Positions 28,910 through 40,223 of a stretch of DNA of 64,000 nt are shown in pieces. Origin of the DNA: Acidimicrobiia bacterium. GTDB taxonomy: Bacteria; Actinomycetota; Acidimicrobiia; Spongiisociales; ZC4RG35. The translations under genes and the position numbers were made by a program. Where the stretch lies: contig JANQOU010000001.1 in the NCBI GenBank assembly GCA_028285585.1, positions 1 through 64,000 on the forward strand, in the 5' to 3' direction. Under the pieces are notes generated by a model that was given only the letters and a program-made list of their open reading frames with translations, made no database searches and was not told the DNA's origin. Every line of letters starts with the position of its first letter. Within the stretch, counting starts at the first letter, position 1.

Positions 28910-29208
28910 TGGGGTCCTTTCGGTTGTCAAGCCGCTTGTAAGGCTTGTGAGGCACTCGAGAATTCGCTTTCGAGAATAGGCTGTCAAGCCGCTCGATCTT
29001 CAACCTATCTCCTCAGAGCACAACCTTGTCATGAATCTGTGTCGTGGACATCTCAACGGAGCCTCGCTCTCTACCTGAGCGCACCCACACCCATAAATCA
29101 AACTCGCGTGCAGCGACTGTCCAGACAGTGCCCGAGGGCAACGACATCTCCGATCTTCGAAACCCTCGCGACAGATCGAACAAATGTTCGCTACTGTTAG
29201 GAGTGACG
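28910..29208. other. intergenic region of 299 bases
   Basis: Divergent promoter space between the small acidic protein gene and the zinc-finger protein gene. It contains a 12-base direct repeat TGTCAAGCCGCT (28925-28936 and 28982-28993) and a nearby TCGAGAAT pair. No RNA gene, terminator or open frame with coding character is seen. Confidence 0.5.
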
Positions 29209-29949
29209 ATGAAATGTCCGTTCTGCCTTGGCGATGGGAAGAAGACCCGCGAACATCTCTTCTCGAATGCTGTCTTCGACTCGATGGGCCTCGATCGCGC
29301 GATCACGGTTGCGTCTGTCAATCCAGACTCGGGATCATTCAAGCCCTTGACCAGCCTGGATAACCGCAGTGTCCGACTGCCCTGCGGGTCCTGCAATAGC
29401 GGCTGGATGAGCGCGCTAGAGGGCGAAACGGCGGATGTCCTGCGTAGGTGGACATCGCCCGGGAACCACGACTTGACCGTTGGTGAGCATTCCACGCTCA
29501 CGCGTTGGCTAGTGAAGACCATGATTGTTTTGACTTTCTCGGAACTCAGAGCCCGAAACTTCATGGAGGAGCCGACGGCGACTGCGATACCTGACATCAC
29601 GTCAGCTCGTGCCGTGGCGGACGGACGCATTCCTGACTTGGCAGTCGTCGGTGCTGCTCGCGTGGCTCCGTCAAGTTCAATCGTGTGGTCAGTAGGTAAT
29701 GCCGACGTTCAGCCTGTCGGGCCAGACGCTATCAGCAGTCGGGCGGTCAACGTAGCTGTCGTTACCCTCGGAGTCCTAAAGCTCTGGATTGCGCTGCCGT
29801 TGATCAAGCCAGACCGGTTGAATCTGCCTCAGGACGTTCGGCCGCTCCTCCCGGGGACACAATTTTCGGAACTCCCAACGAACACGCGCGGTGTGTCACC
29901 GACTCGCGTCAAAGTCTGGTACTCGGCACAGAGATCGGGTGCGTTCTGA
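29209..29949 (+). CDS. zinc-finger/HNH-like protein
   Basis: A 246-residue protein. The N-terminus has C3xxC6 (MKCPFCLGDG), a TREHLFSNAVF segment with His16, then LPCGSCNSGWMSALE with C59xxC62. This CxxC...EH...CxxCN.GW pattern is that of small treble-clef/HNH nuclease-like proteins found in accessory regions. The rest is mixed alpha/beta with a hydrophobic stretch near 178-195. The ATG is chosen from a strong AGGAG six bases upstream. Nuclease activity is plausible but unproven, since the catalytic second His is not clear. Confidence 0.65.
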   Translation: MKCPFCLGDGKKTREHLFSNAVFDSMGLDRAITVASVNPDSGSFKPLTSLDNRSVRLPCGSCNSGWMSALEGETADVLRRWTSPGNHDLTVGEHSTLTRWLVKTMIVLTFSELRARNFMEEPTATAIPDITSARAVADGRIPDLAVVGAARVAPSSSIVWSVGNADVQPVGPDAISSRAVNVAVVTLGVLKLWIALPLIKPDRLNLPQDVRPLLPGTQFSELPTNTRGVSPTRVKVWYSAQRSGAF

Positions 29950-30052: not shown

Positions 30053-30991
30053 GTGACGCAGACTTTGACCCTGCCGGCTTCGGATGGCTACGGCGAAGGA
30101 CTTCGCAACCTTCTCATCGAAGCACTCGGAGAGGACGGGGCATGGCTGATTCTCTCCATCGACCATTACGGATGGCGAATCCGCTACGACTTGGCACGAT
30201 CAGTTGCCGAAGGTGCAGCACATCGGTCGGATCATCACGCTCGTCATCTCCAATCGGTCGTGGATCTCGAAGTGCAATCTGGTCTATACGCAGCAGTGGA
30301 GCAGTTAGGCCGCCTGCTCGCGGGTATTCGCAAGCATGAACACGGAACAGACACCTTCTTCGAAGCCTACGTTGCGTCGAACTACAAGCTGCCAGCTTTG
30401 ATCGACGGGATGGGCAAAGTTGAGCGGGACGAGCTTGGAGTTCTCCTCGGCGTTCCCGACACCCTCGATGAGTTCAAGTCCAGCTTATGGAAGCTGAGCC
30501 AGTCTCAAGAAGCTCAGGTGGCTGAAATGCTGTTTGGTCAGATCCAAACCACTTTGGATGAATTGGCTGCGAACCTTGGAGAGTTCAAGCAGATGATCAA
30601 GAGACTGGACTTGTCAACTACTGACGCTCCCGTCGACGAAGGCCATTCGCTCAGAACCGTCGACAACGCATTCCGACATGGTGTCAAAACCCTGTTCCAC
30701 GACACGCTTCCTATCGAACGCACCTTCGGTGTCGCCGTCAGTGGGATTGCCGATCCGCTGAGTGAGTTCGCGATTGACTTGTATCAGTCGAGTGTGGAGC
30801 CGAAGTTCGCGACGATCGATGGGCGTCCAGAGCGAACCGCAGACCACATCAGCGTCATCGAGGCAGTTTGCGTTCGTATCAAGCAGATGTCTCGCGGTTT
30901 CATTGCGGCTATCGCGAGTGAGCCTGGTTTGCTCGCAACATGGCCTTCGACCACATTGGATGAGGTCGACATTTCGTTGCAAGACGTGTGA
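30053..30991 (+). CDS. unknown helical protein in defence island
   Basis: A 312-residue soluble protein with no family that I recognise. It is mostly helical: about 60-110 (HLQSVVDLEVQSGLYAAVEQ), a coiled stretch at about 155-190 (QIQTTLDELAANLGEFKQM), and a C-terminal domain containing VDNAFRHGVKTLFHD. The GTG start is preceded by AGGTGG at a fair distance. It lies between the zinc-finger protein gene and a convergent GmrSD-type nuclease. Position suggests, but does not show, a defence function. Confidence 0.65.
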   Translation: MTQTLTLPASDGYGEGLRNLLIEALGEDGAWLILSIDHYGWRIRYDLARSVAEGAAHRSDHHARHLQSVVDLEVQSGLYAAVEQLGRLLAGIRKHEHGTDTFFEAYVASNYKLPALIDGMGKVERDELGVLLGVPDTLDEFKSSLWKLSQSQEAQVAEMLFGQIQTTLDELAANLGEFKQMIKRLDLSTTDAPVDEGHSLRTVDNAFRHGVKTLFHDTLPIERTFGVAVSGIADPLSEFAIDLYQSSVEPKFATIDGRPERTADHISVIEAVCVRIKQMSRGFIAAIASEPGLLATWPSTTLDEVDISLQDV

Positions 30992-31021: not shown

Positions 31022-33100
31022 TCAGATGAGGCTCGCTTCTTCCTCGGCGAGAGCTAGCAGTTCTTCGGCTACGAGTTTTGCGTGAGGGTCAGCAGCCCCC
31101 GAGGCGAACGAGACGCCTTCAGCCTCCAACACCTCCGTCGGATCACGAGTATCACTCTGATCGGTCCAGGCAAACCCATCGGCGACATGTCCGTCCCAAG
31201 TGAGCACCCGGTACGGCTTGAAACACGTCGTGCATTTCGAAACGTGATTGGCAAGTGCTTGGGCCGATGTACCAACGGCTTCTGCCAGGTAGAAGTAGCC
31301 AGTCCATTTGCCGTCAGGAATCCGCTCCAGAATCTCGTGGGTGAGTCCCCAATCGAAACCTTGCTCCTGTTTGAACCGGGCGCGGTAGTCGGCCAACACT
31401 TCAGGTGGCAGGGTTGGCCGCCTCCACAGGGCGGTTGCCTGTTCGGCCAACTTCTTCGCCCGAGCAACGATTGTTTCTTCGTTCCAGGTATTGAGTTCAG
31501 CGAGATCCTTGTTGAGCTGGAGGTGGCTGTCGCGAAAGCCTCCGGGCATGTCCCGCTTCTCAACGAACGACCGGTCGGATAACTCGGGGTTGTAGCCCGT
31601 CAGAGTCAGGTTGCCGAGCGTGTGCAACAGTGGGGTCCGCACGTCTGCCCAGTCTGGGCCGAGCATCTCCTGCCACTCCTCTGACAGATTCTCGTTCTGC
31701 GGCAAGACATGCTCGATGGTGTAATCGCCGATGCTTACGGGCTCTTTGTGCCCCTCGTTCTCCATCTTGACCAAGAAGTAGGGCGCTCGTTGAAGGTGGT
31801 AGGTGTCCTCCTCCCGCAGGTACTTCCCAAACTCCTCGTCGTCGGGGAACCGCTTGTAGGTGTCGAGCGTCAGAAGTCTGCCCAGCACACTCTCCACGTA
31901 CTTCTGCGGGTTTATCTGACCGGCAAGCGAGGCGAAGGTCTTGTTCAGAGAGTTGGTGGGAATTCGACAAATCGCCCGGCGGAACAAGTACGAGATGACC
32001 GTGTCGAGGATGAGCGCAAACTCGGACGAAGGCAGCTGGCCTGCCTTGTAGTCGTCGTAGACACGCAGGAGGAAGGGATAAGCCACGGTGGCCTTCAGCT
32101 GCTCGATCTCAGCGAAACGGACGGCAAGCAACGGGTCCGGCTCCTTTCCCAACGCCATCGCAACGAAGTGCTTTGCGCTGTTGCTCAGGTCGACAACCAC
32201 CGCCTCTTGCGTCTTGCCCAGTTCGGCTTGGGCGATAGTGAAATCCTTGAAGGCGTCATAGATGTCCTGCAGCCTCGGAATGGCTCCGGTCCGGAAGGTC
32301 AGGTAGTGGCGAACGAACTCGTCGAATCGACGTTCGTTGGCTCCCTTGAACTCCTGCTCCATCGGAAACCAGTAGCCCTCGTATAGCTGGATCTGCTGAC
32401 TTGGTTCGAGATCCATCAGCACGAAGTTCCTTATGAGATCGGCCTGCGACAGCTTCTTGCCAGTCGAGTTCATCGCCTCAAAAACCAACTGTGGGTTGTC
32501 CACTCCTCGCGCCAAGTGCACATCGACCACGACAAGTTTGGATATGCCTCTGCAAATGTCAGCGAGGTCGACCTTCGAGTCCTCAAGCATGGAGACAAAG
32601 AACTGGTAGTTCGCAACGACACGAGAGGCGGTTTCCTTCGGCAGTGGGTCGTTCCGAACAACTGCCTTGAGAGCCTCCTTGTCGCTCTGAGTCAGTAGCA
32701 GCTTGAAGTACTTGTCACCGGTCTCGTACTCATTTGTAAGCCACAGCCCTCGGATCTTCCGAGGGGCAAAGCCTGTAACCGGCTCTCGCTCATCCTCTGG
32801 GAGGCGTTCAAGGTGAGTGGCCAATGCGGCGAGCAGGAGTGTGACTGTCGTGATGCGTTGCTGACCGTCGATTACGAGCGCCGGCTCAGCTTGGGCGATC
32901 GTGCCATGGTCCTTCTCGACGTAAACGATGGAACCAGTGAAGTGCGCCCCGATGGCTTCGCTCGTCCCGGCTCGGACGATGTCCTTCCAGAGCTGCTCAC
33001 ACTCGGCCGCATCCCATGAGTAGACGCGTTGGTAGATGGGCACCACAAACTGAGTCGCTTTCTTGAGCAGATCCAGCAGATTCACGTCTACCGCTTTCAA
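31022..33100 (-). CDS. GmrSD-type DUF262/DUF1524 nuclease with ATL-like C-terminus
   Basis: A 692-residue fused GmrS-GmrD-like protein. DUF262: VPIYQRVYSWD (20-30), VIDGQQRITT (DGQQR at 78-82, nucleotide-binding) and EAMNSTGKKLSQADLIRNF. DUF1524 His-Me nuclease: YTIEHVLPQN (His464) and LGNLTLTGYN. Such type IV enzymes cleave glucosylated or otherwise modified phage DNA using NTP. Residues about 583-665 look like an alkyltransferase-like DNA-reading domain (EILERIPDGKWTGYFYLAE then KPYRVLTWDG). The PCHR cysteine of methylguanine transferases aligns with Tyr630, as in non-catalytic ATL proteins. It is divergent from hsdM. Confidence 0.82.
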   Translation of the reverse strand: MKAVDVNLLDLLKKATQFVVPIYQRVYSWDAAECEQLWKDIVRAGTSEAIGAHFTGSIVYVEKDHGTIAQAEPALVIDGQQRITTVTLLLAALATHLERLPEDEREPVTGFAPRKIRGLWLTNEYETGDKYFKLLLTQSDKEALKAVVRNDPLPKETASRVVANYQFFVSMLEDSKVDLADICRGISKLVVVDVHLARGVDNPQLVFEAMNSTGKKLSQADLIRNFVLMDLEPSQQIQLYEGYWFPMEQEFKGANERRFDEFVRHYLTFRTGAIPRLQDIYDAFKDFTIAQAELGKTQEAVVVDLSNSAKHFVAMALGKEPDPLLAVRFAEIEQLKATVAYPFLLRVYDDYKAGQLPSSEFALILDTVISYLFRRAICRIPTNSLNKTFASLAGQINPQKYVESVLGRLLTLDTYKRFPDDEEFGKYLREEDTYHLQRAPYFLVKMENEGHKEPVSIGDYTIEHVLPQNENLSEEWQEMLGPDWADVRTPLLHTLGNLTLTGYNPELSDRSFVEKRDMPGGFRDSHLQLNKDLAELNTWNEETIVARAKKLAEQATALWRRPTLPPEVLADYRARFKQEQGFDWGLTHEILERIPDGKWTGYFYLAEAVGTSAQALANHVSKCTTCFKPYRVLTWDGHVADGFAWTDQSDTRDPTEVLEAEGVSFASGAADPHAKLVAEELLALAEEEASLI

Positions 33101-33385
33101 CGGACTACCTCCTGCACGCTTTCCTCAACTAGGCCAGCTGAAGCGACGAGCTGTGCTCCTCTTCGCCCCAAACCGTAGTGCCGGCAACCATCCTCGGTCA
33201 CGGCCGCCAGCAGTGGCTCAAGCCAGATTCAACGCGCGGGTATCGTCGCTCACTGACCAAATGCAATCGCCATCACGAAACAATGATCGAATCCGCCGTG
33301 GACCACTCGGCGTTGCGAACATCGAGTCGAGCAAGTCGTCATCTCACTATGAATTCGTTCGTTCAGAAGAAGCCTTAGCCAGTCC
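33101..33385. other. divergent intergenic region, GmrSD-like / hsdM
   Basis: 285 bases of promoter space between two divergent restriction systems. No coding sequence, RNA gene or strong inverted repeat is seen. The hsdM start has no clear Shine-Dalgarno sequence. Confidence 0.45.
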
Positions 33386-34960
33386 ATGAACAAGGAAACG
33401 CAGCGTGCCGAACTGCACAAGACCATCTGGCGGATTGCCAATGACCTGAGAGGAAGTGTCGACGGGTGGGATTTCAAGCAGTACGTGCTCGGACTGTTGT
33501 TCTACCGGTTCATCTCGGAGAATCTCGCCGCCTATCTGAACGAGCATGAACACAAGGCTGGTTCTCCCGACTTCGACTACGCCAGCATCAGTGATGAGGA
33601 CGCCGAATTCGGCCGTAGGGAAACCGTTGTCGAGAAGGGCTTCTACATTCTGCCCAGCGAATTGTTCGTCAACGTCCGCGCCCGAGCCAGAGACGATGAG
33701 GATCTCAACGAGACTCTTGAGAAGGTCTTCGCCAACATCGAAGGATCCGCAGTCGGCAGTGCAAGCGAGGGCGACTTCAAGGGGCTGTTCGATGATCTGG
33801 ACGTGAACAGCGCCAAGCTTGGGTCGACGGTCGCCAAGCGCAACGAGAAGCTGGTGAAGTTGCTTGACGCCATCGGCGACCTCAACCTGAACAACGGAGG
33901 GGGCACGTTCACCGACAACACCATCGACGCGTTCGGCGACGCCTACGAGTACTTGATGACCATGTACGCCTCCGGTGCCGGGAAGTCGGGTGGTGAGTTC
34001 TTCACCCCTCAGGAGGTATCCGAACTCCTGGCTCGGATGACCGTTGTCGGAAAGACCGAGGTCAACAAGGTCTACGACCCGGCGTGTGGTTCGGGTTCAC
34101 TGCTTCTCAAATTCGCCAAAGTCCTGGGCCGGGACAACGTGCGTCAGGGGTTCTTCGGTCAAGAGATCAACCTCACCACCTTCAACCTGTGCCGCATCAA
34201 CATGTTCCTCCACGACATCAACTACGAGCACTTCGACATCGCCCACGGCGACACACTGACGGATCCGGCCCACTGGGATGACGAGCCCTTCGAGGCGATC
34301 GTCTCCAATCCTCCTTACTCGACGAAGTGGGAGGGCGACTCCAACACACTTCTCATCAACGACCCGAGGTACGCCCCAGCTGGTGTTCTTGCCCCAAAGT
34401 CGAAGGCCGACCTCGCATTCACCATGCACATACTGAGCTGGCTGGCCGTGAACGGGACGGCGGCCATCGTCGAGTTCCCCGGCGTCCTCTACCGGGGCGG
34501 CGCCGAGAAAAAGATCCGCAAGTACCTCATCGACAACAACTACGTCGACACCGTGATCCAGCTGCCGCCAGACCTCTTCTTCGGCACCACCATCGCCACT
34601 TGTGTGATCGTGCTGAAGAAGTCGAAAGCCGACAACAGCACTCTCTTCATAGACGCGTCGGAACAGTTCGTTCGGAGTGGGAACAAGAACAAGCTCACCG
34701 AAGAGAACCAAGAGGCCATCCTCGATGCCTTTGTCGACCGCGCCGATGCGGATCACTTCGTCCGGTTGGTTGAGAACACCGAAATCGAGGACAACGACTA
34801 CAACCTCTCTGTCACGTCGTACGTCGAGCCCGAGGACACCCGTGAACCGGTCGACATCGTGGCACTCAACGCTGAGATCGCCGAGATCGTGATACGCCAG
34901 CAGGAACTGCGGACGGCCATCGACGAGATCGTGGCCGATCTAGAGGATTCACCATCGTGA
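33386..34960 (+). CDS. hsdM: type I restriction-modification methyltransferase subunit
   Basis: A 524-residue N6-adenine methyltransferase subunit. An N-terminal helical HsdM_N domain (about 10-150: FKQYVLGLLFYRFISENL) is followed by the methylase core: GGEFFTPQEVSELL, the SAM motif VYDPACGSGSLLLKF and catalytic NPPYSTKW. It forms an M2S1 methylase that protects host DNA. The stop overlaps the GTG of hsdS (GTGA). Complete, with no frameshift. Confidence 0.95.
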   Translation: MNKETQRAELHKTIWRIANDLRGSVDGWDFKQYVLGLLFYRFISENLAAYLNEHEHKAGSPDFDYASISDEDAEFGRRETVVEKGFYILPSELFVNVRARARDDEDLNETLEKVFANIEGSAVGSASEGDFKGLFDDLDVNSAKLGSTVAKRNEKLVKLLDAIGDLNLNNGGGTFTDNTIDAFGDAYEYLMTMYASGAGKSGGEFFTPQEVSELLARMTVVGKTEVNKVYDPACGSGSLLLKFAKVLGRDNVRQGFFGQEINLTTFNLCRINMFLHDINYEHFDIAHGDTLTDPAHWDDEPFEAIVSNPPYSTKWEGDSNTLLINDPRYAPAGVLAPKSKADLAFTMHILSWLAVNGTAAIVEFPGVLYRGGAEKKIRKYLIDNNYVDTVIQLPPDLFFGTTIATCVIVLKKSKADNSTLFIDASEQFVRSGNKNKLTEENQEAILDAFVDRADADHFVRLVENTEIEDNDYNLSVTSYVEPEDTREPVDIVALNAEIAEIVIRQQELRTAIDEIVADLEDSPS

Positions 34961-36141
34961 GCCGGATCGATGGCCTGATTCAGGAGCTTTGCCCGGATGG
35001 GGTGAAGTTCGAGAGCTTGGGGGAGGTGGGTAGCTTCACTCGCGGGAGTGGCATCCAGAAAGCCGACCTTATCGAGGACGGTGTCGGCGCAATTCACTAC
35101 GGCCAGATTCATACGCACTACCGAACATGGGCACGGGAGACCAAGTCGTTCGTAGCACCAGAAATGGCGGTGCGACTGAAGTTGGCGCGAACTGGAGACC
35201 TCGTGATCGCAACCACCAGCGAAGACGACGAAGCTGTCGGCAAGGCTGTTGCATGGCTGGGAGCAAACGAGGTCGCCGTCAGCACCGACGCATACATCTT
35301 CCGACATTCACTCGACCCGAAGTACATGGCCTACTTCTTCCAAACCGACCAATTCCATCTCCAGAAGAGACGCTTCATCACGGGGACGAAAGTCCGCCGG
35401 ATATCTGGCGACAACCTTGCGAAGGTTCTGATTCCTGCCCCTCCGATCGAGGTCCAACAGGAGATCGTTCGGGTTTTGGACTTGTTTCAGTCGCTGGAAG
35501 CGGAGCTGGGGGCGGAACTTGAGGCGGAGCTGGAAGCGCGCCGCCGTCAGTACGACCACTATCGCGACTCCCTTCTGACTTTCCCTGGGACTGTCCACTG
35601 GGCGACTCTTGGCGAAGTCGCCGCGAATCTTGATTCGATGCGGAAACCAGTCTCTAAAGCCGCTCGGGTAAGGGGCCAGTATCCGTACTACGGAGCCTCC
35701 GGCATCGTCGACTATGTGGATGACTACCTGTTCGACGGCGACTATCTGCTCGTCTCCGAAGACGGTGCAAATCTCCTTGCCAGATCCAAACCGATTGCCT
35801 TTTCCGCCTCCGGAAAGATCTGGGTGAACAATCATGCTCACGTCCTTGAATTCGACTCCTATGCGACTCGACGCCTAATCGAGGTCTACCTCAACTCCAT
35901 CGACATAAGCATGTATGTCGGCGCCGCCGCCCAGCCAAAGTTGACTCAGAAGAACCTCAACCGGATTCGCGTCCCCGTCCCACCGCTCGCAGAGCAAGAG
36001 CGCATCGTCGCCATCCTGGACAAGTTCGGCGCCCTGGTGAACGACCTTTCGATCGGTCTCCCCGCCGAACTCGCCGCCCGTCGCCAACAGTACGAGTACT
36101 ACCGGGATCGGCTACTCACCTTCTCGGAACGAGCTGCCTGA
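34957..36141 (+). CDS. hsdS: type I restriction-modification specificity subunit
   Basis: A 394-residue specificity subunit with two target-recognition domains (about 1-160 and 205-350), each followed by a conserved helix. The spacer repeats are plainly homologous: EARRRQYDHYRDSLLTF near 190-207 and AARRQQYEYYRDRLLTF at the C-terminus. ELGAELEAELEA in the central spacer is a short tandem repeat of the kind whose copy number changes the gap in the bipartite recognition site. GTG start, translationally coupled to hsdM. Confidence 0.93.
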   Translation: MSRIDGLIQELCPDGVKFESLGEVGSFTRGSGIQKADLIEDGVGAIHYGQIHTHYRTWARETKSFVAPEMAVRLKLARTGDLVIATTSEDDEAVGKAVAWLGANEVAVSTDAYIFRHSLDPKYMAYFFQTDQFHLQKRRFITGTKVRRISGDNLAKVLIPAPPIEVQQEIVRVLDLFQSLEAELGAELEAELEARRRQYDHYRDSLLTFPGTVHWATLGEVAANLDSMRKPVSKAARVRGQYPYYGASGIVDYVDDYLFDGDYLLVSEDGANLLARSKPIAFSASGKIWVNNHAHVLEFDSYATRRLIEVYLNSIDISMYVGAAAQPKLTQKNLNRIRVPVPPLAEQERIVAILDKFGALVNDLSIGLPAELAARRQQYEYYRDRLLTFSERAA

Positions 36142-36181: not shown

Positions 36182-36766
36182 ATGAGAACTGAGGCTCCGC
36201 TGCTGGCACCGGTGTTCCGGTCGGAGGGACAGGCCCGGCTTCTCGCCACTCTCGTCCTCACCGGGGACGAACTGAGCCTCACCGACCTCGCGGAACGGTC
36301 CGATGTCGCTTATGCGACGGCACACAGAGAGGTGGCCCGTCTCCTCGATGCGGGGATCCTGGCCGAGCGCCAGGTAGGTCGGACCCGTCTGGTTTCGGCC
36401 AATGCTGAAAGCCCGCTGGTCGAACCGCTGCGTGAGATTCTCCTCATCACCGCCGGGCCGGCGGCACTTCTTGCCGAAGCACTGGCAGAGGTCGAGGGAG
36501 TCGACTTCGCCGTTCTCTACGGTTCCTATGCAGCGCGGGCGCAGGGAGTCAAAGGCCCAGCCCCTCAAGACATCGACCTCATGGTCATCGGTAGGCCCAA
36601 TCCGGAGAAGATCTATGCTGTGTGCGACCAGGTCGAGCCCCAAGTGGGCAGACCGATCAACCCCACGATCCTCAGCCAGGCCGAGTTCGGCGAAGAGTCC
36701 GGGTTCCTCTCGCACATCGCCGATAACCCGACAGTCCCGATCATCGGTGAGGTCCCTTGGCAGTGA
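36182..36766 (+). CDS. HTH-nucleotidyltransferase (MNT) antitoxin-like protein
   Basis: A 194-residue fusion. Winged helix at about 15-75 (LSLTDLAERSDVAYATAHRE, LLDAGILAERQVGRTRL), then a minimal nucleotidyltransferase: LYGSYAARA (Gly114-Ser115) and QDIDLMVIG (Asp130, Asp132). MNT proteins pair with HEPN RNases as antitoxins, in known cases by adenylylating the toxin. The stop overlaps the HEPN gene start. An inverted repeat just upstream suggests autoregulation. The module is placed between hsdS and hsdR. Confidence 0.8.
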   Translation: MRTEAPLLAPVFRSEGQARLLATLVLTGDELSLTDLAERSDVAYATAHREVARLLDAGILAERQVGRTRLVSANAESPLVEPLREILLITAGPAALLAEALAEVEGVDFAVLYGSYAARAQGVKGPAPQDIDLMVIGRPNPEKIYAVCDQVEPQVGRPINPTILSQAEFGEESGFLSHIADNPTVPIIGEVPWQ

Positions 36767-37212
36767 TCCCGCTCTCCGAGGACCAGCAGAAGGCCATCGA
36801 TGATCTGGTCGGCGCCGGTCGGATCGAGGTCGTTCCTGCGGATCTCAACCGAGCGTCGGCTTTCCTGCAACAGGCAGAGAACTCGCTGGCCGACATTGAG
36901 AATGTCACCGTGATCCAGAATCGCTACACCCTCGCTTACGACGCCGGCCATGCCGCTGGTGAAGCCGTGCTCACCGCGTATGGGTATCGCACCACCAACC
37001 AGCCTGGACACCACGAAGCGTTGGGTCTGTTCCTTTCTGCGATTCTGTCTGAACCGAACCAGGCGGAGGCGGCAGCGCACTTCAAGCGAAGGCGACGAGC
37101 CCGAAACCAGATGCAATACCGCGCCCGCCCACCGAGCGAGACCGACACGGAACAGGCTGCCCGTACAGCAACCACTCTGGTCGAGGCCGTGCGTCAGCGA
37201 GGAGTGGAGTGA
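36763..37212 (+). CDS. HEPN-family protein, toxin partner of MNT
   Basis: A 149-residue helical protein. The central helices (IQNRYTLAYDAGHAAGEAVL) and FKRRRRARNQMQYRA near 110-125 resemble HEPN proteins of the SAV_6107-like group, where RN...Y replaces the usual R-x4-6-H RNase motif. Start GTG 36763 overlaps the MNT stop; TTG 36757 is an alternative. The end overlaps the hsdR start (GTGA), so the toxin is coupled to both partner and restriction subunit. The RNase activity is inferred from the family. Confidence 0.75.
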   Translation: MIPLSEDQQKAIDDLVGAGRIEVVPADLNRASAFLQQAENSLADIENVTVIQNRYTLAYDAGHAAGEAVLTAYGYRTTNQPGHHEALGLFLSAILSEPNQAEAAAHFKRRRRARNQMQYRARPPSETDTEQAARTATTLVEAVRQRGVE

Positions 37213-40200
37213 AGGAAAGTCCCGGGTCGCACTACGAGCCGATTGCTCTCAGCTCGGAGAGCACGGTCGTCGCTGAGTTCGTACCTGACGTAAACGCCGA
37301 GTCGTCGTATCAGTCAGAGGCCGAGCTTGAAAGGGCTTTCATCGCGCTTCTCCAGCAACAGGCGTATGAGTACCTGCCTATCACCAGCGAGGCCCAGCTG
37401 ATTGCCAACGTGCGGACTCAGCTCGAGGCTCTGAACGCGATCGAGTTCAGCGATGCCGAATGGGAGCGGTTCTTCACCGAACGAGTATCTGGGGATAAGG
37501 ACGGCATCGCCGAGAAGACGGCACGTATCCAGGAAGATCATGTCCAGCTCCTCGAACGGGACGACGGGTCGACCAAGAACGTCCGGCTGATCGACAAGAA
37601 GAACGTCCACAACAACCGGGTACAGGTGATCAACCAGTACGAAATCGAAGGCTCTCGCAAAAACCGGTATGACGTGACGATGCTGGTCAACGGACTGCCG
37701 ATGGTGCACATCGAACTGAAACGTCGCGGCGTGGCGATTCGCGAGGCGTTCAACCAGATCAGTCGTTATCAACGGGACAGCTTTTGGGCCGGCTCGGGCC
37801 TATTCGAGTACGTGCAGGTCTTTGTGATCAGCAACGGCACCCACACCAAGTACTACAGCAACACCAACCGGCTCCAGCATCTCGACGAGACCGGCGGAAA
37901 CAAGCGGTCGCGGCGAACATCGAACAGCTTCGAGTTCACGAGTTGGTGGGCCGACTCGAACAACAAGCCGATCCAAGACTTGACCGGATTCGCTCGGACG
38001 TTCTTTGCCAGGCACACGTTGTTGAACATCCTCACCAAGTACTGCGTGTTCGACGTTGACTGGATGCTGCTGGTGATGCGGCCCTATCAGATCGCCGCTA
38101 CCGAGGAGATCCTCCGGCGGATTGAGGTCTCGACCAACTATCGAACTCTCGGCACAGTCGCGGCCGGTGGTTACGTGTGGCACACCACCGGCTCCGGTAA
38201 GACTCTGACCAGTTTCAAGGCCGCGCAACTGGCGAGCCGGTTACCGGACATCGACAAGGTGCTGTTCGTGGTCGACCGGAAGGATCTCGACTACCAGACG
38301 ATGCGTGAGTACGACCGGTTTCAGAAGGGAGCGGCCAACTCGAACACATCAACCCGGGTCCTGAAACGGCAACTTGAAGACCCAGACGCTCGGATCATCG
38401 TCACCACCATCCAGAAGCTGGCCAACCTCGTTGGAGGAAACAAGGACCATTCCATCTACGACGGTCATGTGGTGATCGTGTTCGACGAGTGTCATCGGTC
38501 GCAGTTCGGTGAGATGCACACAGCGATCACCAACGCGTTCAAGCGCTACCACCTTTTCGGTTTCACCGGCACACCTATCTTCTCCGACAACGCAAGAAGC
38601 GGGGGAAACCCGCGTCTCCGGACGACAGAGCAGGCATTCGGCGACAAGCTGCACACCTACACGATCGTCGACGCCATCAGCGACAAGAACGTGCTGCCCT
38701 TCCGCATCGACTACGTCAATACAGTGCGGCTGCCGGAAGGCATCGACGACAAGCAGGTCAGTGCCATCGACACTGAGAACGCGTTGTTGGCCACCGAGCG
38801 GGTGAGCCAGGTCGTCGCCTACATCCTCGAGCACTTCGACCAGAAGACCCGACGGGCCGAGCACTATCTGCTCAAGGATCGGCGGCTGCGTGGGTTCAAC
38901 TCACTGTTCGCAACGTCGTCAATCAGAGCTGCACGCATCTACTACAACCAGTTCGGCCGCCAACAGGAGCACCTCCCCTCGGATCAGCAACTCAAAGTCG
39001 GGATGATCTACAGCTACGCCGCAAACGAGGAAGAACCGGATGGTCTGCTTGCTGAGGAAGGGTTCGACCCGCATGACCTGTCCGTAGACGACCGCACGTT
39101 CCTCGAAGATGTCATCCAGGACTACAACGACATGTTCGGCACGAGTTTCGACACGTCGTCGGATCGGTTCGAGAACTACTACAAGGACCTGTCGCAGCGG
39201 ATCCGGAACCGCGAGATCGACATCGTGATCGTCGTCAACATGCTCCTCACCGGATTCGACGCCACGACTCTGAACACGTTGTGGGTAGACAAGAACCTCC
39301 GTGCTCACGGCTTGCTCCAGGCCTACTCACGTACCAATCGCATCCTCAACTCTGTCAAGACCTACGGGAACATCGTCAGCTTCCGAGACCTGGAAGAGGC
39401 GACCAACGACTCCATCGCCCTGTTCGGCAACAAGGACGCCGGTGGGATCGTCCTCCTGAAACCGTTCCAGGAGTACTTCGAGGAATACTCAGAGCTTGTG
39501 TCCGAACTTCTGGAGAAGTACCCAATCGGCGAACAGATCGTTGGAGAGAGGGCGCAGAAAGAGTTCATCGCCCTCTTCGGAGCGATCCTTCGACTCCGAA
39601 ACATCCTCGTCTCCTTCGACGACTTCGAAGATCAACAGATACTGACACCACGCCAGATCCAGGACTATCAGAGCCTCTACCTCGACCTCTACGCCGACTT
39701 CAGAGTTCGGGAGGCAGCAGACAAGGAATCCATCCTCGACGACATCGTTTTTGAGATCGAGCTGATCAAACAGGTCGAGATCAACGTCGACTACATCCTG
39801 ATGCTGGTGGAGAAGTATCGCGAGGCCAAAGGCGACGACACCGACAAGGAGATGCGTGCCGAAATCGAGCGCGCCATCGATTCCAGCCCATCGCTACGAA
39901 ACAAGAAAGACCTCATCGAAGCCTTCGTCGACTCACTATCCGTGACTGCCGACGTCGACGCCGAATGGCAGACCTTCGTCGCCACAAGACGAGCCGAGGA
40001 GCTCGACCGAATAATCGCTGAAGAGCGCCTCGACCGAAACGCAACGATGGCTTTCGTAGATCGTGCTTTCCGCGATGGAGCAGTCCCAGCGGGTGGCACA
40101 GCGATCACCAGAGTCTTACCAGCGGTCTCCCGATTCTCCGCGACCGGCGACCATGGGGCGAAGAAGAACATCGTGATCGAGCGGCTGACAGAGTTCTTCG

Positions 40201-40223
40201 AACGATTCTTCGGCCTCGGCTAG
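37209..40223 (+). CDS. hsdR: type I restriction endonuclease subunit
   Basis: A 1004-residue motor/nuclease subunit. The nuclease domain holds RYDVTMLVNGLPMVHIELKR (PD-ExK type: Asp then ELK). The SF2 helicase has HTTGSGKTLTSF (motif I), VFDECHRSQFG (II), FTGTPI (III), MLLTGFDA and AYSRTNRI (V-VI). The C-terminal helical domain binds the M2S1 core. It translocates and cuts unmethylated DNA. GTG start overlapping the HEPN gene stop. Complete length. Confidence 0.95.
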   Translation: MKESPGSHYEPIALSSESTVVAEFVPDVNAESSYQSEAELERAFIALLQQQAYEYLPITSEAQLIANVRTQLEALNAIEFSDAEWERFFTERVSGDKDGIAEKTARIQEDHVQLLERDDGSTKNVRLIDKKNVHNNRVQVINQYEIEGSRKNRYDVTMLVNGLPMVHIELKRRGVAIREAFNQISRYQRDSFWAGSGLFEYVQVFVISNGTHTKYYSNTNRLQHLDETGGNKRSRRTSNSFEFTSWWADSNNKPIQDLTGFARTFFARHTLLNILTKYCVFDVDWMLLVMRPYQIAATEEILRRIEVSTNYRTLGTVAAGGYVWHTTGSGKTLTSFKAAQLASRLPDIDKVLFVVDRKDLDYQTMREYDRFQKGAANSNTSTRVLKRQLEDPDARIIVTTIQKLANLVGGNKDHSIYDGHVVIVFDECHRSQFGEMHTAITNAFKRYHLFGFTGTPIFSDNARSGGNPRLRTTEQAFGDKLHTYTIVDAISDKNVLPFRIDYVNTVRLPEGIDDKQVSAIDTENALLATERVSQVVAYILEHFDQKTRRAEHYLLKDRRLRGFNSLFATSSIRAARIYYNQFGRQQEHLPSDQQLKVGMIYSYAANEEEPDGLLAEEGFDPHDLSVDDRTFLEDVIQDYNDMFGTSFDTSSDRFENYYKDLSQRIRNREIDIVIVVNMLLTGFDATTLNTLWVDKNLRAHGLLQAYSRTNRILNSVKTYGNIVSFRDLEEATNDSIALFGNKDAGGIVLLKPFQEYFEEYSELVSELLEKYPIGEQIVGERAQKEFIALFGAILRLRNILVSFDDFEDQQILTPRQIQDYQSLYLDLYADFRVREAADKESILDDIVFEIELIKQVEINVDYILMLVEKYREAKGDDTDKEMRAEIERAIDSSPSLRNKKDLIEAFVDSLSVTADVDAEWQTFVATRRAEELDRIIAEERLDRNATMAFVDRAFRDGAVPAGGTAITRVLPAVSRFSATGDHGAKKNIVIERLTEFFERFFGLG

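Follow-up and report, generated by a model that had tools for sequence, protein, structure and literature searches.

For some GmrSD nucleases, the means by which they sense a DNA mark has been described. The single-chain enzyme BrxU cuts DNA containing 5mC, 5hmC or glc-5hmC; the DGQQR motif is the nucleotide hydrolysis motif of GmrS, and the BrxU pair D474/H475 is required for cleavage (PMC8565348). In DndI and SspE, which are paired with phosphorothioate modification genes, sensing of the modification is the task of the N-terminal domain (PMC11662687). Many GmrSD enzymes bear extra C-terminal domains of unclear role. One of these is DNA_binding_1 (PF01035), which passages of a 2015 study place on GmrSD homologues 'mainly from various Streptomyces species' (Machnicka et al. 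2015, PMC4619093), so that the combination of GmrSD and PF01035 is already known. The relevant passages of that study name the domain and hold no analysis of its catalytic, finger or pocket residues; in the open-licence literature we found no further study of the GmrSD-fused domain, and no protein bearing this tail for which binding to DNA, cleavage or an effect on phage had been tested. Here, we analyse such a protein encoded in a 64,000-nt stretch of an Acidimicrobiia bacterium contig (hereafter, the window). Its tail derives from a DNA-repair protein that probes damaged bases, but neither the reactive residue nor the base-flipping arginine is retained in it. A base-flipping repair fold that has been stripped of its chemistry and moved between nuclease types would offer a direct way into the question of how type IV enzymes select modified phage DNA.

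The gene is a single intact reading frame with a Shine-Dalgarno sequence (AGGAGG, 33108-33113) 7 nt from its TTG start (Table 1). Both core domains score well above the Pfam curated cut-offs (GmrSD_N, 110.9 bits against 33.2; GmrSD_C, 82.2 bits against 23), and E463-H464 is the equivalent of BrxU D474/H475. By both Pfam domains and the intact DGQQR and HNH motifs, the predicted protein is a member of the GmrSD family; PADLOC labels it Orf5/HEC-06. In the AlphaFold model, residues 3-563 of the core (about 1-565) align with DndI at Z 21.3; the scores against SspE and BrxU are Z 17.6 and Z 11.2, all three being defence nucleases of the GmrSD type with solved structures. Family membership suggests that cleavage by this protein would be modification-dependent (type IV). 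By analogy with BrxU, SspE and DndI (PMC8565348, PMC11662687), the DUF262 domain would bind and hydrolyse nucleotide, gating the HNH (DUF1524) domain, which, as in the family at large, would cut DNA under the control of a DNA mark.

Table 1. Features of the gmrSD-like gene, its protein and the adjacent type I RM locus (window coordinates).
Feature	Residues	Position	Strand	Basis or remark
gmrSD-like gene		31022..33100	-	Single intact ORF, 692 aa, TTG start
GmrSD_N / DUF262, ParB-like NTPase-type domain	9-227	32420..33076	-	PF03235, E=1.2e-31
GmrSD_C / DUF1524, HNH-type nuclease domain	418-553	31442..31849	-	PF07510, E=4.3e-23
DGQQR motif	78-82	32855..32869	-	Invariant across 27-sequence alignment (A4)
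HNH catalytic motif	E463-H464 ... H493, N497, N504	31589..31714	-	Invariant in 27-sequence alignment (A4)
MGMT/ATL-like winged helix domain	578-680 (about)	31061..31369	-	PF01035, PDB profile matches, hhalign, VIA-align
Base-flipping Tyr of AGT/ATL (Y114/Y25)	Tyr602	31295..31297	-	Y in 53/53 relatives
Arginine-finger position (R128/R39)	Gln614	31259..31261	-	hhalign; relatives Q34, V14, R3, A2 of 53
Cysteine pair, loop after recognition helix	C623-x2-C626	31223..31234	-	Present in about half of relatives
Counterpart of P-C/W-H-R	K628-P629-Y630-R631	31208..31219	-	Active-site column without Cys or Trp
hsdM		33386-34960		Type I RM locus
hsdS		34957-36141		Type I RM locus
hsdR		37209-40223		Type I RM locus

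The C-terminal tail matches PF01035 weakly (residues 589-662; 16.5 bits, E=0.008, under the cut-off of 27). Its homology to MGMT/ATL proteins is nevertheless real. The last 128 residues, used alone as a query, recover fused relatives at roughly 50% identity as well as standalone PCHRV MGMT-family proteins (E down to 1.7e-6), and three of the tail relatives (L042, L047 and L085) exceed the PF01035 cut-off, with L047 reaching 36.6 bits. A profile of eight tail relatives, searched against the PDB, returns E. coli Ada-C, S. pombe Atl1 and the V. parahaemolyticus ATL at the top (E about 1e-3), followed by further MGMTs; it was the profile alone that gave such a match, a phmmer search of the PDB with the single tail sequence having returned no MGMT. 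The comparison with MGMT and ATL families that the first-pass annotation had called for gave, with hhalign, 98.7% against 12 ATLs and 98.1% against 41 MGMTs. Finally, the AlphaFold model of the tail (pLDDT 89.5, pTM 0.75) aligns best by VIA-align with S. pombe ATL bound to DNA (3gx4; Z 10.8 over 94 residues, rmsd 3.1 Å); every rank down to 34 is an MGMT or ATL chain, and generic winged helices follow at Z 3.1. Foldseek again ranks the MGMT/ATL family first, and in the full-length model residues 578-680 align with 3gx4 at Z 11.1. Sequence profiles and models thus identify the C-terminal domain as a homologue of the MGMT/ATL DNA-binding domain with a predicted MGMT-type winged helix fold. These results bear out the earlier description of a DUF262 and DUF1524 protein, a type IV-like nuclease, that carries a non-catalytic domain of this fold; a predicted C-terminus lacking the fold, which would have refuted that description, was not the outcome. 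They confirm where that description placed the domain (about 80 residues, 580-670) and extend it somewhat, to about 578-680.

Alkyltransferases and ATLs have in common a tyrosine and an arginine finger for base flipping and a pocket that reads P-C-H-R-V or P-W-H-R-V (PMC10779285). To assign the corresponding columns we used profile alignment (hhalign) of 53 fused-family relatives, 12 ATLs and 41 MGMTs. In the reference sets the Tyr, the Arg and the Pro-Trp pair are present in 12/12 ATLs, and the MGMTs carry the Tyr and Pro-Cys without exception (41/41) and the Arg in 39/41. The tail family departs from this pattern at the pocket and the finger. The Cys/Trp column falls on Pro629 and is occupied by Ala in 40, Pro in 10 and other residues in 3 of the 53 relatives, never by Cys or Trp; the His column falls on Tyr630 (W 24, H 17, Y 9, others 3). 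Tyr630 had earlier been taken for the active-site Cys position, an assignment that is off by one column. The finger position is Gln614, with A-Q-[AP]-L-[AG] the counterpart of A-R-A-V-G; a hand alignment made without a profile had put the finger over Leu616 and was dropped. F643, W645 and E661 are near-invariant among the relatives. The cysteine pair C623-x2-C626 would suggest a zinc site, but we do not propose it as essential, since only about half of the relatives possess it.

PF01035 homology might point to an active alkyltransferase, yet the active-site column holds Cys in 0/53 relatives. This rules out an alkyltransferase of any kind known; we regard the chance that the tail is an active alkyltransferase as negligible, and its earlier designation as non-catalytic stands. 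The first-pass annotation went further and took the domain for an ATL-type sensor of bulky O6-alkylguanine. The closest structural match being DNA-bound Atl1, the absence of the Cys as in ATLs and the retention of Tyr602 would all agree with this idea. However, the arginine finger found in 12/12 ATLs is replaced by Gln614, Pro55 and Trp56 of the ATL pair are replaced by Lys628 and Pro629 (K-P-Y-R-V in the window protein), and the same loss runs through the fused family. Moreover, in the tree the fused proteins make up a clade of their own, separate from the actinobacterial ATLs (99*), and the host genome already encodes a PWWRV ATL as well as an MGMT. Judged from the aligned columns, the tail lacks two of the three ATL marks and retains the base-flipping Tyr alone. 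Because the finger and the Pro-Trp pair are lost, reading of O6-alkylguanine by the tail is not supported, and we consider it improbable; the tail is more likely to have been re-purposed as a DNA reader or anchor. The earlier account is therefore partly supported: it was correct in its main lines, but one residue was misassigned and the proposed function was too specific.

To follow the tail beyond this protein, we scanned a collection of 84,980 genomes, one per species, with alignment A2 (the eight-sequence alignment A1 being too divergent). The scan found 66 loci, nearly all in Actinomycetota. At 35 of these the tail follows a GmrSD core. Phages and viral contigs yielded no relatives of the tail, and plasmids yielded one. 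Eight of the 35 (L035-L046) constitute a separate core clade; in L035, the sole member scanned with Pfam, a RAMA domain sits between core and tail, and a gap of about the same length is present there in the remaining seven. In L080, DUF4268 is located after the tail. About two dozen further loci, mostly from Streptomyces, lack a GmrSD core. Five core-less proteins that we aligned share an N-terminal domain in which a nuclease-like motif, D-x13-E-x-K, is conserved, L050 has a weak N-terminal NucS_C match (E=0.0055, below cut-off) and L073 a sub-threshold match to HNH_2. In proteins from Streptomyces, Blastococcus and Frankia (L042-L066), this MGMT/ATL-like tail is joined to a NucS-like PD-(D/E)XK domain, an arrangement for which we found no description in the open-licence literature. 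A lone tail domain at L147:2940-3393 lies after the apparent end of a GmrSD core, as a remnant gene, and adjoins what looks by eye like a nucleotidyltransferase/HEPN pair. Two other candidates were set aside: L144, a frame of 832 codons that contains a PAHRV domain, was dropped as a further fusion, most of it appearing non-coding, and a GIY-YIG domain suspected by eye at the N terminus of L085 was not confirmed.

The cores and tails of these proteins group differently. The closest relatives of the window core (Arthrobacter D5-1, at 57% identity, Ruegeria, Aminobacter and a genome of the same family) have another kind of tail, attached at the same junction (near residue 575); that of Arthrobacter, the only one of them with a Pfam call, is DUF5655. 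In the core tree the window protein groups with these DUF5655-type cores (99*). In the tail tree its nearest neighbours are the tails of the L035-L046 GmrSDs (53% identity), and a single clade comprising the window tail and the remaining GmrSD tails is rejected (p=1.4e-4). An AU test on the core tree (p 0.41) does not prove that the tail was gained on the window lineage. Because the core grouping differs from the tail grouping, the tail is an exchanged module; the alignments and trees indicate that it is mobile, having been swapped between GmrSD cores and between nuclease types.

The gmrSD gene lies back to back with hsdM, divergent from the adjacent type I RM locus (Table 1), and a related core (50% identity) is found in Ruegeria TM1040 inside a type I RM operon ordered hsdM-hsdS-orf-gmrSD-helicase (L102:4311-13489). 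This proximity, together with the binding of UvrA/UvrC by ATLs (PMC10779285), could mean that what the tail binds is another protein (a regulator, say, or the type I RM complex encoded next door) and not DNA. An HsdM or HsdR homologue lies within 6 kb of only 5 of the 35 tail-bearing GmrSDs, however, and the tail is also present on unrelated nucleases, so we hold a protein-binding role to be unlikely. On the same count we rejected a fixed link between tail-bearing GmrSDs and type I RM as a rule; the locus is a defence-island neighbour of the gene and no fixed partner. Within the operon, a nucleotidyltransferase/HEPN pair (PADLOC PDC-M05A/B, 36182-37212) sits between hsdS and hsdR. On the other side, a 312-aa ORF (30053-30991) converges on gmrSD; it matches nothing in Pfam, PADLOC or NCBIfam, and 59 related genomes contain no homologue. 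Beyond it, an ORF at 29044-29949 has CPFC...CGSC zinc-finger-like pairs and no family match, and is possibly an HNH-type protein. Elsewhere, the same genome encodes a second DUF262 protein of another type (L148, G000:C8:52027-52665), with an AlbA_2/Schlafen-like C terminus by eye. Of the phosphorothioation genes, a search confined to DndC (TIGR03183) found none in the 97% complete host genome.

Taken together, the evidence leads us to favour, at a probability of about one in two, a single-chain, modification-dependent GmrSD nuclease in which a dead MGMT/ATL winged helix serves as an exchangeable DNA-recognition module. The tail would dock on DNA through its recognition helix and would help to choose the DNA handed to the nuclease, probably DNA with some modification. 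DNA recognition is the most likely role of the tail because it has a DNA-binding fold, retains the flipping Tyr together with a conserved side of the pocket, is exchanged for other accessory domains and occurs on unrelated nucleases. What the tail might recognize is a separate matter. DndI senses phosphorothioate through P-x-Y-Q (P23, Y25, Q26), whose window counterparts are P21, Y23 and Q24; given N-terminal sensing in DndI and SspE and the retention of this motif, the tail may not be the sensor. It could instead be a DNA anchor, a winged helix of non-specific or sequence-specific binding that raises affinity, with any modification sensing in DUF262. The loss of the Arg finger, the residue that drives flipping, tells against the reading that we favour. 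This loss and the binding of the minor groove by the MGMT-type HTH without sequence specificity (PMC10779285) are consistent with such an anchor, which is a reasonable second candidate, though we think it less probable. Against it, F643, W645 and E661 are near-invariant and Tyr602 is kept in 53/53 relatives, for which a plain anchor has no obvious need. Within the DNA-recognition reading that we favour, a role of the tail as a base-modification sensor is possible. More tentatively, the family may be a distinct MGMT/ATL subfamily (Cys/Trp replaced by Ala/Pro, finger by Gln/Val) that acts in Actinomycetota as a plug-in reader of a phage base modification other than O6-alkylguanine, common to GmrSD, NucS-like PD-(D/E)XK and other nucleases. 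If so, SRA, EVE and RAMA would be joined by another fold that reads modified bases, one new to restriction. The tail is small and compact, and nature provides a swap, DUF5655 on a 57% identical core, which makes the reader question testable.

Of the closest known systems, DndI (9jfl) and SspE (7drs) share the predicted fold of the window protein's core and are the best structural matches to it, but have no ATL-like tail. BrxU and Eco94GmrSD resemble it as single-chain GmrSDs with DGQQR and HNH motifs; they too lack the tail, and the structural match is weaker (Z 11.2). On the side of the tail, the ATLs (Atl1, 3gx4; V. parahaemolyticus ATL, 2kif) have in common with it the fold, the absent Cys and the base-flipping Tyr, whereas they keep the Arg finger and the Pro-Trp of PWHRV, both of which the window tail, fused to a nuclease, has lost. 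Archaeal AGT-EndoV and ATL-EndoV fusions (PMC10779285) likewise combine an alkyltransferase-fold domain with a nuclease, but with a different nuclease and in a repair context, and the Ferroplasma AGT-EndoV is catalytically active (PMC10779285). The GmrSD homologues in the passages of the 2015 study (PMC4619093) have the same DUF262, DUF1524 and DNA_binding_1 architecture; unlike them, the window core belongs to the DUF5655-tailed clade. Relative to that account, what is new here is the mobility of the tail between cores and the presence of the same domain at the end of NucS-like nuclease proteins.
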